DNA from: Alcanivoracaceae bacterium
GTDB lineage: Bacteria; Pseudomonadota; Gammaproteobacteria; Pseudomonadales; Alcanivoracaceae
Direction of reading: 5' to 3'
Assembly: GCA_027324795.1 (NCBI GenBank)
Contig: DAHVSB010000002.1
Location: forward strand, 1-64,000
Length of the DNA: 64,000 nt
The position numbers and the translations under genes are program-made. The notes below the pieces were generated by a model that searched no databases, had not been told where the DNA came from, and worked only from the letters and a program-made list of their open reading frames with translations. Positions within the stretch are counted from its first letter, which is position 1. The number at the start of each line of letters is the position of its first letter. Below, piece by piece: positions 53,714 through 64,000 of this stretch.

Positions 53714-54437
53714 CACAGCCCAGCCTCTTATTGCTCACCTGATGGAGCTGCGCAGCCGCCTACTGCGCATGCTCACTGCCATCGGTGTGATTTTTTTAGC
53801 ACTACTGTATTTCTCAAGAAATATTTATGCCTTTGTGGCCAAGCCCTTAGTGGATGCCCTGCCTGAAGGCACCTCCATGATTGCCACTGATGTGGCCGCC
53901 CCTTTTTTAGTGCCCTTTAAGCTCACCCTATATGTGAGCATTTTTATAGCGGTACCCTTTATTTTACATCAAATATGGGCCTTTATTGCGCCTGGCTTGT
54001 ATCGCAATGAGAAACGTATCGCCCTTCCTTTACTCAGTAGCAGCGTGCTGTTGTTTTACTTAGGTTGCGCTTTTGCCTACTTTGTTGTGTTCCCGCTGAT
54101 ATTTGTATTCTTTACTTCCATCGCTCCCGAAGGCGTGGCAGTGGCCACTGATATCAGTAGCTACCTTAACTTTGTGATGAAGCTGTTCTTGGCTTTTGGC
54201 GTGGCATTCGAACTGCCCATCGCCATTATTTTATTGGTCTGGAGCGGCGCCACGACGGTGGCATCACTAAAAGAAAAACGCCCCTATGTGATTGTGGGGT
54301 GCTTTGTGGTGGGTATGTTACTCACTCCACCCGATGTGTTCTCACAAACCCTTCTCGCCATCCCCATGTGGGCACTGTTTGAGATTGGGCTTGTGGTTGC
54401 CAGTATGCTCAAGCCTGCTAATGACAATACTGACTAA
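53697..54437 (+). CDS. tatC: Sec-independent translocase TatC
   Basis: [16 protein letters not shown], polytopic, [15 protein letters not shown]. Confidence 0.96.
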
Positions 54438-55305
54438 AGAACTGCAATAAGCCTTGCTGCTTAATTGCAGAAAAATTGCCGCCTATATGAGGCGCATCTA
54501 GGGTTAGCATGGCTTTTGGTTGCGCAGCAGCGGCATATAAGCTCTCACCCTGCTCATAGGGAATAATCTCATCCTTTTCGCTATGGATAATAAGCAGCGG
54601 CGGTTGAATATTTTCTACCTGCTCAATAGGTGCCCAATCGTTGGCTAAGGCGGGCAACACCACAGGCTTAAACACCTTAATCCAACTTTGGCTCATAATA
54701 TGGGAAGCTGCGTCTCGATAACTCGTAAAGCCCGCCTCTAATACGGCGCATTGGTATTTGTGTTGATTATCCGCCTGCGAGAGCACATAAGAGCTAGTGG
54801 CAGCACCTATGCTTTGACCATATACGATTAATGGTTTTTGTGTGCGCTCTGCGCGGGCGAGCCAGTCGAGACCTAGCTGAATATCCTCAAACACACCGGG
54901 CAGTTTCGCTTTACCCTCTGATAATCCAAAACCACGGTAATCCAACATAAATAAGTTGTAGCCTTGCGGTGGAAGCCAAGTCACTGCCATCAAATGGGTA
55001 CTAATATTCTGCGCATTGCCATGTAAAAAATAAATAGTGCCCTTTGCCTCATGGCCTGGCTCAAGCACAGCGGGAATCCACCAACCATGAATACGCAGCC
55101 CATCGGGGTGAATCAGCACAACATCCTCATAAGCGAGTTCTTGGCGCTCAGGGTTTTGCACCCATGGGGTTAAGGGCAAGAAATAAATACTGCTGCAACC
55201 TGCTAGCCATAAGGCCAACCCCGCAACAAGCCAGCTCTTAAAGACCCTCAGTCGAAATAATAGCGCCATGACAGCTCTACCTCTGTATCTCCTTTTTTGC
55301 GCCAC
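54418..55305 (-). CDS. Alpha/beta hydrolase lipoprotein
   Basis: LAGCSS lipobox, [25 protein letters not shown] nucleophile elbow; overlaps the end of the DUF4105-like gene. Confidence 0.82.
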
Positions 55306-57152
55306 GCTTGGTGCTTGGTGCTTAACCGCAAGGCATGATGGGTTGCCACAGGCAAGCTTGCGGTTAGACGCCCCTGATGGCGTACTTCATCGCGCAAGAA
55401 GTAAAAGCTTTCAGCGCTTGCACCTAGCACCAACCCTTTAGGACCATGCCATAGGGCACCAACCGTTGCCCCTACTCCGGGCTCAATGTATTGCTGATGC
55501 TGCTTATGATGTTCCGCTCTGACTGCCACAAACGCATAAGGACGAAATGCACTCCATTGCCATGACAGCCCAGGACCAGCTTCTATGTAGGTGGTTACTT
55601 CGTAACGTCCACTCACTGCAATGCGCTCAATCCCACCGCGCACATACCAAGAGATGGGCTTAACGAAAGCGTCACGCGTAGCTAAAGAACGTATATCTAC
55701 AATACCTAAATCTTGCAGTTGCAAGCGGTTATTTTTGTCATAACGTAATTTAGTACGAAAGGCTTCAATTTGTGCACCGGCTAAAAAGCCCTGCGGTGGG
55801 TCAAACCAGTCATGGTAGGCCCAACGATATTCTAGCTGTCCATAGCCGTCACCTTCTAAAGCACCACCTGTAACAGCCACCATTTTAGTGCCATGGCCTA
55901 CTTCGGGGGGCGCCGGCGGAATTGGCTTTGTATCACTGCTTTTGGGATAAGCACTTAAGCGACGTAATAGCTGCATACTATGCCGCGCAGCAGTGGCATC
56001 ACGCTCTTTATTGCGTTGCTGAAAGCGCAACAACTCATAAGCTGCTTTCAATACCTGACGCTGCTTTACAACTGATAGTTCACTAAAAGAAGCCTGATTA
56101 TAATCGGGCTCTTTGCTTAAGCGTTGTGCCAAGCGCCGTTCACTGCGGCTCATCTCAGCACCAATGGCTTTCAGCTCCACCGCCTTTGATGGGCGGTAGT
56201 TTTCTCCAGCCACCAAATCAGCATGAATCATGGCACGAACCGTGTCCACGGGGATTTCCGTAAAGCGAAAATGAGTGAGCAAACCAGAGCCAGGCCGTGC
56301 CACCTCCATAAGCTCTAGCAATCGAAAGGAGCAATTTTCATCTAAAAAGTAATAATCGAACCGCACATCTTGTAGCTCCCACAGGTGTTCAATGAGCCAT
56401 TGCCGCTCCTCCAGGTTGAGCGTCAGCGGGTATTCCCACATATCACGGTTTTCTAAATGTGCGTATTCTTGAATTTTGGTGTGATAGGGCACAGTAGAAA
56501 AATAGCCAGGGTAACTACCTGCCAAGCCACGATAGATATAAAGCATAGACGCTTCGTCATCCACCACGGCGCCAAAATTAACCGCCCAAGATAGCCAACT
56601 CCCCTTATCATCAGCATCACTCGCATCGAGACGCAATAACGTATGACCAAACATGCTTGAGGGGCTATTTAAATATGCGGCAGGAAACACCAGTACCACA
56701 CGCGCATCAGGCACCATGGCCCGCCATTCTTGGTATTCATCACAATGATCGAAAGCTCCTGCAAGCGACCACCCCAAGTGCTCAGACAAAAAACGATATC
56801 GTGCGGGAAAACGGCAACGCTCAGGACTATTTTCAGGCTTCAGCGCACGAACAGTGGCATTGAGCTCACTTAGCGCATCGCTACGGCCATGGGGTGACAA
56901 AAAGAAACTCTCTTGTGTTACGTAGCTCTTATTACGGCTACGAAATGTGGTGCCTTGGTTCCAGTGCAACAAGGCCAGCCAACGCTCGTGTTTGGCAAGA
57001 AAGACTAAAGGAGTGGATTCAGAACTTGTGGTGGCCACAGCCGCTTGGGTAACAAAGCCCGAAATCAAAACAAACAGGCAAACTAGCCATTTGCGCCAAG
57101 GGGCCATCAATATCTCACTTACTGCATAAAAAGTGCCCCAAGAAAGGGGCAC
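55248..57152 (-). CDS. DUF4105 / Lnb-N-terminal-domain-like outer membrane-associated protein
   Basis: 634 aa; signal peptide; RCRFPARYRFLSEHL, YLNSPSSMFGHTLLRLD, YYFLDENCSFRLLELMEVARPG; C-terminal beta-barrel-like region ending in F/D. Confidence 0.78.
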   Translation of the reverse strand: MPLSWGTFYAVSEILMAPWRKWLVCLFVLISGFVTQAAVATTSSESTPLVFLAKHERWLALLHWNQGTTFRSRNKSYVTQESFFLSPHGRSDALSELNATVRALKPENSPERCRFPARYRFLSEHLGWSLAGAFDHCDEYQEWRAMVPDARVVLVFPAAYLNSPSSMFGHTLLRLDASDADDKGSWLSWAVNFGAVVDDEASMLYIYRGLAGSYPGYFSTVPYHTKIQEYAHLENRDMWEYPLTLNLEERQWLIEHLWELQDVRFDYYFLDENCSFRLLELMEVARPGSGLLTHFRFTEIPVDTVRAMIHADLVAGENYRPSKAVELKAIGAEMSRSERRLAQRLSKEPDYNQASFSELSVVKQRQVLKAAYELLRFQQRNKERDATAARHSMQLLRRLSAYPKSSDTKPIPPAPPEVGHGTKMVAVTGGALEGDGYGQLEYRWAYHDWFDPPQGFLAGAQIEAFRTKLRYDKNNRLQLQDLGIVDIRSLATRDAFVKPISWYVRGGIERIAVSGRYEVTTYIEAGPGLSWQWSAFRPYAFVAVRAEHHKQHQQYIEPGVGATVGALWHGPKGLVLGASAESFYFLRDEVRHQGRLTASLPVATHHALRLSTKHQAWRKKGDTEVELSWRYYFD

Positions 57153-57168
57153 TCTGTACTATCGATAA

Positions 57169-57651
57169 TTATACGGAGTACTTAGATAAGGCTTCGTCTG
57201 CTTTAAGCACAGCGTTAATATTGGCCTGTACCTCTGCAGCAGTAACGTCTTCACTGGTGAAAATGCTGTCAAAGTTATTGTGCAAAACCGCGTTGAAGTG
57301 CTCACGGTCTTGAGCTTCAACACCCATGGATACTGACAATGCGGTTAACGCTTCACCTTCACCCATAGCAACGTCATGAGCCACTTCCTCTAGCACACCG
57401 TTCATGCTAAGCAAGCTGCTACCGTTGTAGGTTAATGCGCCATCAGTGGAGCAACCATTGGTACCGGAGGTCATACCGAAAGTGGCGTTACCAGAAGTAC
57501 CGTTCACAATCGTAGCAAGTAAGTGAACAGGAAGGCCGCTCTTGCCTTCAAAAACCATGTTACCCCAACCGCAACCTGGGCCACCAGGAGCCACAGCAGA
57601 TGCAGACATGGAAGCGCCAAGCAAAGCACCAGCTAGTAAGATTTTTTTCAT
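57169..57651 (-). CDS. DUF3015-like secreted protein
   Basis: MKKILLAGALLGASMSASAVAPGGPGCGWGNMVFEGKSGLPVHLLATIVNGTSGNATFGMTSGTNGC. Confidence 0.75.
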   Translation of the reverse strand: MKKILLAGALLGASMSASAVAPGGPGCGWGNMVFEGKSGLPVHLLATIVNGTSGNATFGMTSGTNGCSTDGALTYNGSSLLSMNGVLEEVAHDVAMGEGEALTALSVSMGVEAQDREHFNAVLHNNFDSIFTSEDVTAAEVQANINAVLKADEALSKYSV

Positions 57652-57785
57652 TTGATTTTCCTTTTTCTCATCATTGCGCTCCTGTGGGAGCCCTACGAAC
57701 ACGCCGAAAAACGACGCCAAGTAATTAACTTAGTGTGCATTTTTTACCTTGTAAACCCTTATTTGCAAAAAATTGCTTGAATTCG

Positions 57786-59669: not shown

Positions 59670-59900
59670 TTATTCGCTGTGTTGCACGCGAATACGTACG
59701 TGATATTCGCCTGCTTGGCTTTGAGTGTCTAGTACTTGGTGCCCATTAATGCGACACCAAGTGGGGATATCATTCAGCATCCCTGGATCCGTGCCCACCA
59801 CTAGTAACTCCTCGTTCGTCGCCATGGTATTGATTTTGTTTTGCGTGCGAATCACCGGTAAAGGACATAATAAGCGTCTTACATTAAGCTCTTCAGCCAT
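59670..59900 (-). CDS. TusA-like sulfur carrier protein
   Basis: MAEELNVRRLLCPLPVIRTQNKIN: TusA CPxP motif; 76 aa. Confidence 0.85.
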   Translation of the reverse strand: MAEELNVRRLLCPLPVIRTQNKINTMATNEELLVVGTDPGMLNDIPTWCRINGHQVLDTQSQAGEYHVRIRVQHSE

Positions 59901-61041
59901 GCTGTTCTGCCTCGACGGGTGCGGGAGGAATCTCTGGACGACTGTCGCCCACATGCCACTCTGGTTTAATTTGATCAGGTCTTAAGGCTTTTACAGTTAG
60001 CTCGCGAGTTACGCCATTAGGCTCGCGGTAGGCAATAATCACTTCATCTGCAGTGCGCCCTTGGGAGAATCGCGCCACAATCTGTGCAGCCAACTGCAAA
60101 TCCTCATCGGACTCAAACTCGCCATCCACTAGCGTTAAAGGCCCACCATGACTGACTACCTCAAAGCTTGGGAACTGGTAACGGTATCCCTGCAAGAAGT
60201 TATTTTCGCCTTCTTCGCGACTCACAATAAGTTTAAAGTTCGGCTTGGGTCGTAAATGCCTGCCGACTTTAAGCAACATGATGTCATCAAGTTCATAATC
60301 ACGTTTACGGCGAGCTTGCCATAAATCTGCCAGCTTATTGGAATAAGCCTCATGGGTTAAAAAGCAACAACCACCTGCTGGCTGAGCAAACTCTGTTAGC
60401 CCAAACTTTTCTGCTAGCTCCATTTGTGGCGTGCGATTACGGCCACTAAAGCCATACAGCTCATCACGATTCACCCAGCCTTCACGCTCAGGCAAGGTGG
60501 GGTCTAAATTCAACGCGCTCAGAGGTCTGAGTAAACGGTCATCAGCACCGGACTCGCGAGCAATCACAGGCATGGTCCATTTAAGTTGGGATTTAGGTCT
60601 CTGACCAATCACCTCGCCTGTAATAATAAAGTCAAACCCTTCATCACCAGCCAACTCACGCGCTTTATTTAGCATTAGGGTGGCTTGGTTGACCATAAAA
60701 ATTTTGCAATCTAAACAAGGGTTTAAGTGAGCACCGTAGCCATGCTTTGGGTTTAGCACCACATCTTTGTACTCTTCAGAAATATCCACGATATGCAGCT
60801 TAATCCCCAACTGCTCTGCTACCCAAAGCGCATTGTTGCGCTTGTTTTTATTCTTATCTCGCTCGCGAATGGCTTGGGTGTGGCCTTCTACACAAAAACC
60901 GGTGTAAAAATTCACCCCTTCAACTTCAATACCTTGCTCCTGAATAACACGCACGGCAAGCATGGAATCAAGCCCGCCCGATACCAGCGCTAGGGCTTTA
61001 CGTTTAACAGGCTGCTTGGTGGAACTTGATGGCTGACTCAT
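59893..61041 (-). CDS. PP-loop tRNA thiouridine synthase-like protein (MnmA/ThiI-related, putative Fe-S)
   Basis: ALALVSGGLDSMLAVRVIQEQ PP-loop, NPCLDCKIFM and GGCCFLT Cys motifs; overlaps tusA-like gene by 8 nt. Confidence 0.8.
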   Translation of the reverse strand: MSQPSSSTKQPVKRKALALVSGGLDSMLAVRVIQEQGIEVEGVNFYTGFCVEGHTQAIRERDKNKNKRNNALWVAEQLGIKLHIVDISEEYKDVVLNPKHGYGAHLNPCLDCKIFMVNQATLMLNKARELAGDEGFDFIITGEVIGQRPKSQLKWTMPVIARESGADDRLLRPLSALNLDPTLPEREGWVNRDELYGFSGRNRTPQMELAEKFGLTEFAQPAGGCCFLTHEAYSNKLADLWQARRKRDYELDDIMLLKVGRHLRPKPNFKLIVSREEGENNFLQGYRYQFPSFEVVSHGGPLTLVDGEFESDEDLQLAAQIVARFSQGRTADEVIIAYREPNGVTRELTVKALRPDQIKPEWHVGDSRPEIPPAPVEAEQHG

Positions 61042-61144: not shown

Positions 61145-62110
61145 TTATTGAATGGCAAAGTGTTGCTGGCTAAATGCCACCCGTTCTTCCACAGGCGGGC
61201 GTTTTAGCCCTTGGCGTTGACGCTCAGCAATATGGGCCTCCACTAGTTCGCAGCGGCGCATTAAGCCATCATCATTTGCAATCTGAATATTTAGCCCAGG
61301 GCGCGCGTTGATTTCTAGCATCATGGCACCTTGGTCTTTATCTAGCACAAGGTCCACACCGATATACCCAAGACCTGTGAGCTCATAGCAGCCACTGGCC
61401 AAGGTCATAAACTCCTGCCAATCAGGCAGCTGTACGCCAGCCACAGGATTAGTGGTATCGGGGTGGCGACTGATAATGCGGTTGTGCCAAGTGCCGCCTA
61501 ACGTCACACCAGTGGCTAAATCCACACCCACACCTATAGCTCCTTGGTGTAAATTCGCTTTACCCTGAGATTGTCGTGTAGGTAAACGCAACATGCCCAT
61601 TACGGGGTAACCTCGCAAAACAATGAGGCGAATATCCGGCACCCCTTCAAAGCTAATAGCACCAAACACATCATCTGGAATCACGCGATATTCCACCAAT
61701 GCTTTGTCGCGGTACCCTCCTAAGGAATAAATCCCCGACAAAATCCCTGAAAGATGGTGCTCAATATCATCGAGCGTGAGCAGGCGCCCACTTGCGGTGC
61801 GGTACAAGCCTTCAAATTTATCGGTAATCACAAGGATGCCGTCACCACCCGCCCCTTGTGCAGGCTTAATCACAAAGTCTTTGCGCTCACCAAGGATGCG
61901 CGCAAAACCTTTGATTTGTTGCTCGGTTTCAATTACAGCGAACTGTTCCGGTACCCGGATACCCACCTCCATAGCGCGCTTTTTAGTGAGCACTTTATCG
62001 TCCACCAATGGGTAAAGGTGACGACGATTATAGCGCAGCACATAATCCCCATTACGTGCATTGATACCCATGATGCCTCGCGCCTGCAGGCGCCTACGAA
62101 TACCTAGCAT
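61145..62110 (-). CDS. ATP-grasp amidoligase, alpha-L-glutamate ligase-related (RimK-related)
   Basis: 321 aa; YNRRHLYPLVDDKVLTKKRAMEVGI, KDFVIKPAQGAGGDGILVI, MMLEINARPGLNIQIAN. Confidence 0.85.
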   Translation of the reverse strand: MLGIRRRLQARGIMGINARNGDYVLRYNRRHLYPLVDDKVLTKKRAMEVGIRVPEQFAVIETEQQIKGFARILGERKDFVIKPAQGAGGDGILVITDKFEGLYRTASGRLLTLDDIEHHLSGILSGIYSLGGYRDKALVEYRVIPDDVFGAISFEGVPDIRLIVLRGYPVMGMLRLPTRQSQGKANLHQGAIGVGVDLATGVTLGGTWHNRIISRHPDTTNPVAGVQLPDWQEFMTLASGCYELTGLGYIGVDLVLDKDQGAMMLEINARPGLNIQIANDDGLMRRCELVEAHIAERQRQGLKRPPVEERVAFSQQHFAIQ

Positions 62111-63643
62111 CTACAGCTCCTTTCTCGCCAAGGCGCGAAAGCGGATAAGCTCGCTCAAGCGATAACCGCGGTAATGCCCCATCAGCAACATAATGCCCAC
62201 CATCACGAGTAAAATTCCGGGAAAGGTAAAGCAAAAATACGACAGCTGTGGATGACTCATTAACAGATGCGCAAAGGTGGCGGCGATTAAGGTGGCGATG
62301 GCGGTTTTCAGCGCATGCATGCTACCCCGTTCCTCCCACACAATCGATAAGCGTTCGATTACCATGGTCAGAATAACCATGGGGAATAAAGCAATCGAAA
62401 GCCCTTTTTCAATACCAAGTTTGTAGCCCACCAAACTGATCAGGGCCATAAGAATAATGACAAAAGTGAGCACCACCGACAGACGCGGCAGCAGCTGCAA
62501 CCGTAAATGCTCAAGATAGGAGCGCAGGGATAACCCGATGGCGGTGATAACGGCAAACATAACTATGCCCGTCACCACTTCGGTTTCGCGGAACGCTAAT
62601 GCCACCAACACGGGGGTAAAAGTACCTAGCGTTTCAAGTCCCACCAAATTGCGCAGCAACAAAATTAGCAGCACACCAGCAGGAATCATCAGCATTACGC
62701 GATAAGTACTTTGGGTGGCCACGGGCAGCTCATACAAAGAAGCCGTGAGCAATGCTTTGTTACGTGCGGCGTCATTGGTTTGAGCAAGCTGTATGGTATT
62801 TACTTCAGTTTTTGCCACACTAAAACTGACGCTGGGTTTACTACCACCTTCAATCTTTACGATGGGTTCATGCCCAACCCACCAAATTAAGCGGTCTTCA
62901 GGCAATCCTTGTTTGCCTGTAACTGGGCTAAAGTACACCCAATGCTTACCATTGTGGCTGCGCAGCCAAAGCTCTGGGCTTTGCTTTTGTGAATCTGCTA
63001 AGCGAACAGTATGAACCTGCTGTGAAGGAATATGCGCCGCTGCCAACAAGGTTTCAATCACCCGAGCACGGTTTTCCACGCTGGTATCCCCGCCAAGCAG
63101 CAATTTAACGTTGTCATCATTGGGGATGTTTAATCGACGGATCATTTCTGTGATAAAAGTTTCCACATCTGCCGAGTGTTGCCGGATGGGCTCAAGCAAA
63201 GCCTCAGCAGCCAGCTTTTCTGCGCCCTGCAAAGGCGGGCGTGGGCGAAACTGTTGCCCCTGCCCCTCAGAGGTAGCACGCCCAAATCGCTGAGAAATGG
63301 CTTGACGGTAATACAAAGTTTGTTCACCCTCAGCGCGGCGCACCGACCAGGTGGCTATTCTATTTTCATCCTGTTGGTTTACGTTTACACCATAATTAGG
63401 CGAAATAAAGCTTTCGTTTAACGTTAAAAAATGATCGCTTTTTGGCGGCACATGCATTTGCACCTTAATCGGCGCATCGGCCTTAGCCGTAAAATTTAAG
63501 CGCGCATCCAGCACCCAAACTGTGTCTGTCTCATCCTCTTTAATAGGAATATCTAGCACTAGAATTTGATAAAGTGTAGCACCCGCTCCCACTAAGATAA
63601 GGGTGAATGCCAGTACCATTGCATGTATTTTTATGCCACGCAT
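62111..63643 (-). CDS. Inactive transglutaminase-fused 7TM membrane protein
   Basis: 510 aa; N-terminal TM, periplasmic transglutaminase-like region, then about 7 C-terminal TM segments (LMIPAGVLLILLLRNLVGLETLGTFTPVLVALAFRETEV...); stop directly abuts the ATP-grasp start. Confidence 0.8.
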   Translation of the reverse strand: MRGIKIHAMVLAFTLILVGAGATLYQILVLDIPIKEDETDTVWVLDARLNFTAKADAPIKVQMHVPPKSDHFLTLNESFISPNYGVNVNQQDENRIATWSVRRAEGEQTLYYRQAISQRFGRATSEGQGQQFRPRPPLQGAEKLAAEALLEPIRQHSADVETFITEMIRRLNIPNDDNVKLLLGGDTSVENRARVIETLLAAAHIPSQQVHTVRLADSQKQSPELWLRSHNGKHWVYFSPVTGKQGLPEDRLIWWVGHEPIVKIEGGSKPSVSFSVAKTEVNTIQLAQTNDAARNKALLTASLYELPVATQSTYRVMLMIPAGVLLILLLRNLVGLETLGTFTPVLVALAFRETEVVTGIVMFAVITAIGLSLRSYLEHLRLQLLPRLSVVLTFVIILMALISLVGYKLGIEKGLSIALFPMVILTMVIERLSIVWEERGSMHALKTAIATLIAATFAHLLMSHPQLSYFCFTFPGILLVMVGIMLLMGHYRGYRLSELIRFRALARKEL

Positions 63644-63681
63644 TTAGAAGTCCTTCATTTTTTCAGCGGATGCTATGTGCT

Positions 63682-64000
63682 TTAGTCACAGTGGGGATTG
63701 CCTGCGGCAAATTCCAAAGAAGAGTCCACTAAGGCGCCAATTTCACGCAACCCTTCTGAGCCCACTAGCAATGGAAAATTAAAATTACGACGATCAGCAA
63801 GGTTAACTCGCATAGGGACTTCGCGGCCGCCTATACACACCTTAAGCCTAACAACGATACGCTCACTGTACGTTTTCTCGTTATCTGCTACATCTTCTTT
63901 GCGGCGACGAATGCGCACGGTTTTATCCACAGGCAATTCTACTTTTTGCCCTTGATGGCTTTCTGCCCCCAGTCGAAATCGCACCCACTCTTCATCATCT
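63682..64000 (-). CDS. Retropepsin-like 'ATP-dependent zinc protease' (RimB/PF05618-like), partial, runs off right edge
   Basis: Open frame to the window edge: DDEEWVRFRLGAESHQGQKVELPVDKTVRIRRR...MRVNLADRRNFNFPLLVGSEGL: C-terminal half of this family. Confidence 0.78.
   Translation of the reverse strand, partial: DDEEWVRFRLGAESHQGQKVELPVDKTVRIRRRKEDVADNEKTYSERIVVRLKVCIGGREVPMRVNLADRRNFNFPLLVGSEGLREIGALVDSSLEFAAGNPHCD

Follow-up and report, generated by a model that had tools for sequence, protein, structure and literature searches.

Related systems

The rloABC operon of Pseudomonas aeruginosa (PA1768-PA1767-PA1766) was characterized in 2025 (mBio, PMC12239564). RloA proteases and RloBC are involved in osmotic survival, biofilm, beta-lactam tolerance and wall-related phenotypes of this species, which carries three rloA genes plus rimB (PMC12239564). 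P. aeruginosa RloA cleaves a Glu8 tail on RpsF and, in vitro, cuts chains of 8-10 glutamates but not of 6; R114A/R137A substitutions abolish its function in vivo, such that the basic cleft is required (PMC12239564). As hypo-osmotic growth of an rloA1-3 null mutant is fully rescued by deleting rloB, rloC or both (PMC12239564), the phenotype depends on RloBC activity. The P. aeruginosa genome was not found to encode a polyE target (PMC12239564), so a target made by a ligase is expected.

Two other systems are relevant for comparison. RimB-RimK similarly pairs a retropepsin-like protease with an ATP-grasp glutamate ligase, but RimB is cytosolic and has no 7TM partner. PgsBCA (CapBCA) is comparable only in its manner of working: a ligase in the cytosol, a partner with multiple TM helices and a hydrolase outside the cytoplasm. 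Its ligase PgsB is of the Mur-ligase type and not an ATP-grasp protein.

Locus organization

The DNA analysed here (the window) covers positions 1-64,000 of a contig of 77,507 bases (G000:C77:1-64000) in a 2.05-Mb, 87% complete assembly. Its last three minus-strand open reading frames are a canonical rloABC operon (Table 1), an ordinary and well-conserved member of the operon already described. The original prediction, which had assigned all three genes to their families and noted that they share a strand with one stop abutting the next start, was borne out by the ORF listing (0 bases between the rloB stop and the rloC start; 38 bases between rloA and rloB) and by HMM searches, in which TIGR02291, PF14400/PF14402 and PF05618 all matched. 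The system is not an undescribed one: the operon has been characterized as rloABC (PMC12239564) and has its own NCBIfam models. What is new here is comparative: RloB and RloC are a constant pair, and they have a sister clade with a live transglutaminase.

Table 1. Positions of the rlo features in the window and loci of the sister clade
Feature	Position	Strand	Description
rloC	61145..62110	-	ATP-grasp amide ligase, 321 aa, TIGR02291 + PF14397
rloB	62111..63643	-	510-aa inner-membrane protein: N-terminal TM helix, inactive transglutaminase-fold periplasmic part, 7TM
RloB periplasmic region, residues 39-282	62798..63529	-	Transglutaminase/cysteine-protease fold (Foldseek 3isr, triad columns)
RloB 7TM domain, residues 308-509	62117..62722	-	Near-invariant charged residues
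rloA	63682..64000 in window, on to contig 64206	-	Retropepsin-like secreted protease, C-terminal 105 aa (open at window edge) inside
Active-transglutaminase/7TM/ATP-grasp/TPR/barrel-like loci	L045, L068-L071, L088-L167		

The locus resembles P. aeruginosa rloABC in its A-B-C order, its protein families, the signal peptide and DTG motif of RloA, the fusion of an inactive transglutaminase to a 7TM domain and the ATP-grasp RloC. It differs in that the sequences are divergent and in that a single PF05618 gene was identified in the 87% complete genome, as compared to three rloA genes plus rimB.

The RloA protease

The truncated RloA inside the window matches PF05618 with 73.8 bits. Because the contig extends beyond the window, rloA could be completed: the full ORF (63682-64206) presumably begins with a GTG at 64206, preceded by an AGGAG-like site (by eye), and a divergent typA-like gene starts at 64487. 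Extension to the protease N-terminus, as the original prediction had suggested, recovered the catalytic Asp, which lies just past the window edge (contig 64054-64056) in the active site KLDTGA. The N-terminus appears by eye to be a typical hydrophobic signal peptide ending in ...AVMA/KEF. The protease had been predicted to be of the RimB type, but it carries this signal peptide and is closest to the solved RloA structures 9g58 (E-value: 2e-34) and 9g59 (E-value: 3e-34) rather than to cytosolic RimB. A RimB-RimK locus would have a cytosolic protease without a signal peptide beside RimK and no 7TM gene; here, a PF05618 protease with both a signal peptide and a DTG motif lies upstream of rloB, as in rloABC.

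RloA retains K46, D48, R99, K109, R114 and R137, which are polyglutamate-binding or catalytic residues according to the P. aeruginosa study, and its cleft exchanges substitute one basic residue for another (R92 to K, K95 to R and K97 to R). Polyglutamate cleavage by RloA, and suppression of an rloA null by loss of rloB or rloC, are known only from P. aeruginosa; in the protein studied here, the cleft residues are conserved.

Elsewhere, two single open frames of 406 and 397 aa (G009:C60 and G088:C151) each contain two PF05618 matches, a tandem, single-chain arrangement unlike that of the solved members of this family, which are homodimers.

The RloB membrane protein

RloB matches PF14402 (324 bits) and PF14400 (157 bits). 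It aligns over its full length with NF052267 (1-507 of 508), with a score of 783.6 bits that falls below the cut-off of 900; as this is an "exception" model that names a narrow subgroup, the shortfall limits naming by NF052267, while both the architecture and the operon are those of rloABC. At the alignment columns of the transglutaminase Cys, His and Asp, RloB has V, E and S, making it, as in rloABC, a PF14400+PF14402 protein without a transglutaminase triad.

An AlphaFold2 model from the single sequence (pLDDT 40.6) was discarded, and prediction was repeated with 94 homologues. In the model from this 94-row alignment (pLDDT 93.3, pTM 0.83), an N-terminal helix is followed by a periplasmic region that is rich in beta structure and also contains helices, and then by a membrane domain made of helices. 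The predicted periplasmic part resembles the transglutaminase-like cysteine protease 3isr (Foldseek E-value: 5e-8), and a profile search agrees (E-value: 2e-4). Foldseek and profile searches of the PDB matched only this periplasmic part, with no solved-structure relative for the 7TM domain. The near-invariant residues R331, E430, R431, E438, E498 and R501 are all in the 7TM part and not in the periplasmic domain.

Homology of the RloB 7TM domain to PgsC/CapC, considered because of G..P..A motifs and their spacing (by eye), was not significant and is not established. PF14102 (PgsC/CapC) has no match in RloB. HHalign comparisons with PgsC gave E-values of 0.04, 0.56 (canonical PgsC set) and 0.012 (with double-CapC proteins) in inconsistent registers, the last alignment falling on the other half of PgsC. 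The sequence used for Bacillus subtilis PgsC is one that we take to be correct from its PF14102 score (139 bits), the one check applied to it. The double-CapC proteins (L033-L037, L039-L043) are approximately 1,080 aa in length with two PF14102 repeats, and come from a family of organisms (f79; its other members bear the titles Ghiorsea/Mariprofundaceae) in which RloB relatives with an active transglutaminase also occur.

The RloC ligase and conservation of the operon

RloC, encoded immediately downstream of rloB as in rloABC, matches TIGR02291 with 476.6 bits (cut-off 314) and PF14397 with 297 bits. K82, E140, D253, E266 and N268 are invariant in 107 relatives from both clades and, judging from the motif, likely contact ATP and metal, as would be expected in an ATP-grasp enzyme.

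The original prediction was to be refuted if the three genes were not conserved together, but they are. In a sample of the order, 60 of 65 RloB loci (complete or partial RloB) have a PF05618 gene no more than 3 kb away; the remaining five genomes have a PF05618 gene elsewhere, some of their RloB genes being close to contig ends, such that every genome with an RloA-type locus in this sample has a PF05618 gene. RloC follows RloB nearly without exception among the loci examined in detail. In nine loci (L045, L157, L160-L163, L165-L167) the two are fused into one ORF, a Rosetta-stone link between the cytosolic ligase and the membrane domain; the fused transglutaminase-7TM-ATP-grasp protein has a length of about 810-845 aa. 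No conserved partner beyond A-B-C was identified in the rlo clade, the best neighbour occurring in 5 of 32 rlo-type loci. RloB-RloC is the constant pair, and one large clade has RloA in addition.

A sister clade with an intact transglutaminase

Distant PF14402 matches led to proteins that have the transglutaminase Cys, His and Asp, and scanning a genome collection with these sister proteins identified 119 loci, 80 of which were fetched. They are distributed among Pseudomonadota, Nitrospirota, Bacteroidota, Myxococcota, Thermodesulfobacteriota, Calditrichota, Chlorobiota, Spirochaetota, Campylobacterota and Bdellovibrionota. As in Rlo, the 7TM protein, whose 7TM domain is homologous to that of RloB, is adjoined by or fused to a homologous RloC in nearly all 80 loci, and the RloC proteins of the two clades are far closer to each other (profile matches of 1e-90 and better) than to RimK (2e-13). 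These loci differ from rloABC in three respects. First, 40 of 43 aligned sister-clade rows have the whole triad (Cys and His in 43/43), as opposed to none of the 51 RloA-type RloB proteins, all of which have lost it. His and Asp were partly selected for, as stretches around them were in the scan patterns; no such selection applied to the Cys or to the absence of RloA. Second, RloA was found beside none of the 80 loci (flanks of up to 9 kb per side, shorter on some contigs); no PF05618 gene at all was found in 35 of 50 genomes (several of them incomplete), and those located elsewhere in the other 15 probably encode RimB. Third, where there was room, a TPR protein is encoded downstream in 49 of 57 loci and a secreted protein resembling an outer-membrane barrel in 38 of 52. 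The barrel-like proteins have no Pfam match, are mostly 376-485 aa in length and end in F, Y or W in 24 of 44 cases. A search of a limited set of papers returned no description of this module, although Iyer/Aravind 2009 may already mention such loci.

Other arrangements were also observed. At L072 (5397-7458) and L073 (5580-7422), a 7TM domain without the transglutaminase part is preceded by a barrel-like secreted protein and followed by RloC, possibly a minimal version of the system. L044 (6505-8451, plus strand) encodes a degenerate PF14402 domain in fusion with an ATP-grasp domain resembling D-Ala-D-Ala ligase, with a protein of HlyD-like appearance upstream. A PF14402 match in G055:C75 (E-value: 5e-4) was false and belongs to an RND-type transporter.

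In a quick 7TM-domain tree built without bootstraps, the active and inactive types form two groups separated by one change (support 95 and 91), and RloA-type rows also stay together in the RloC tree (support 99). One genome, G094, has both types. With one switch on the tree, loss of the triad and presence of RloA represent one event that was long kept and not repeated independent evidence; the exchange of active transglutaminase for RloA may be coincidence. A sister clade with an intact triad and no RloA suggests that the transglutaminase domain was once an enzyme acting on the product. The periplasmic step seems to fall to a live transglutaminase in the sister clade and to RloA in the RloA-type clade.

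The 2025 study proposed that Rlo derived from rim by addition of rloB. The co-occurrence of RloC and RloB in a sister clade without a PF05618 gene makes this origin less likely, which is suggestive given the single RimK row in the tree.

Proposed function

The original proposal of an envelope system based on amino-acid chains stands, as does its statement that substrate and product are not firmly defined. The explanation that we prefer, to which we assign about even chances of being correct as a whole, is that RloC makes an acidic chain, RloB hands it over at the membrane and RloA trims it. RloC, a RimK-like ATP-grasp ligase, would build the chain in the cytosol, free or on a carrier, and this chain would most likely be alpha-linked polyglutamate. 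The 7TM domain of RloB would then pass the chain or carrier to the periplasm (this transport is a guess), where the dead transglutaminase fold would bind or orient it and secreted RloA would cut it and so limit its length. Without RloA, the RloBC product would harm the wall at low osmolarity, which would explain why the rloA-null phenotype is cured by deletion of rloB or rloC. Several points count against this explanation. Detection of a product has not been achieved for any organism. The exchange of active transglutaminase for RloA is one historical event, and 15 of 50 sister-clade genomes do have a PF05618 gene elsewhere. The 7TM domain has no solved-structure match and its similarity to PgsC is not significant.

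A broader proposal, which we hold tentatively and with more doubt than belief, is that a widespread and undescribed system (transglutaminase-7TM, ATP-grasp, TPR and outer-membrane barrel) spans the envelope, where it makes a polyamino-acid chain and exports it, and that RloB-RloC represents a reduced branch of this system. In that branch, the periplasmic transglutaminase would have died, with its cutting or transfer step passing to RloA, a retropepsin that was recruited. The downstream TPR and barrel-like genes, which also speak for the preferred explanation, are the arrangement expected of an envelope-spanning export path, by which the sister clade would export its chain to or through the outer membrane.

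These same neighbours fit product export better than an alternative that we consider unlikely, in which no free chain is exported. RloC would instead attach polyglutamate to a specific protein that is secreted or resides in the envelope, much as RimK modifies RpsF, or to a wall precursor, with RloB as receptor or chaperone of that target and RloA reversing the tag. The RimK/RimB precedent, the cleavage of the RpsF tail by RloA (PMC12239564) and the wall-related phenotypes are all consistent with such tagging, but as RloC is cytosolic and RloA periplasmic, the tagged target would have to cross the membrane after tagging. Less probable still is that RloB is mainly a sensor, its dead transglutaminase domain binding peptides or wall fragments and controlling RloC. 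Dead enzyme folds often turn into binding domains, and the wall and osmotic phenotypes would suit this role, which is close to the "peptide-binding sensor" first proposed for the domain. A sensor role is not supported over active handling of the product: the sister family with its full triad and no RloA suggests that the older role was to catalyse a reaction on the product, and the near-invariant charged residues of RloB are in the 7TM and not the periplasmic domain. Production of a small osmolyte by RloBC, or addition by RloBC of amino acids to a lipid or glycan, with the polyglutamate activity of RloA being incidental in either case, agrees with the osmotic phenotype and the PF14397 label ("sugar-transfer associated ATP-grasp") but is very improbable, as the polyE-binding residues of RloA are needed in vivo (PMC12239564) and are conserved here.

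With RloA as trimmer of a chain that RloB-RloC should make, the question is narrowed. It also becomes easier to test, as the sister family with its live transglutaminase and outer-membrane partners offers independent systems in which to seek the product.

Other genes in the window

Two other minus-strand clusters were noted in the window. At 59670-61041, a TusA-like gene overlaps by 62 bases the gene for a HUP-domain (MnmA/ThiI-like) protein bearing an NFACT-R_2 domain; these are probably a sulfur-transfer pair for RNA. At 54418-57720, an Lnb_N/DUF7843/DUF7840 envelope protein, a DUF3015 protein and an alpha/beta hydrolase are encoded together.
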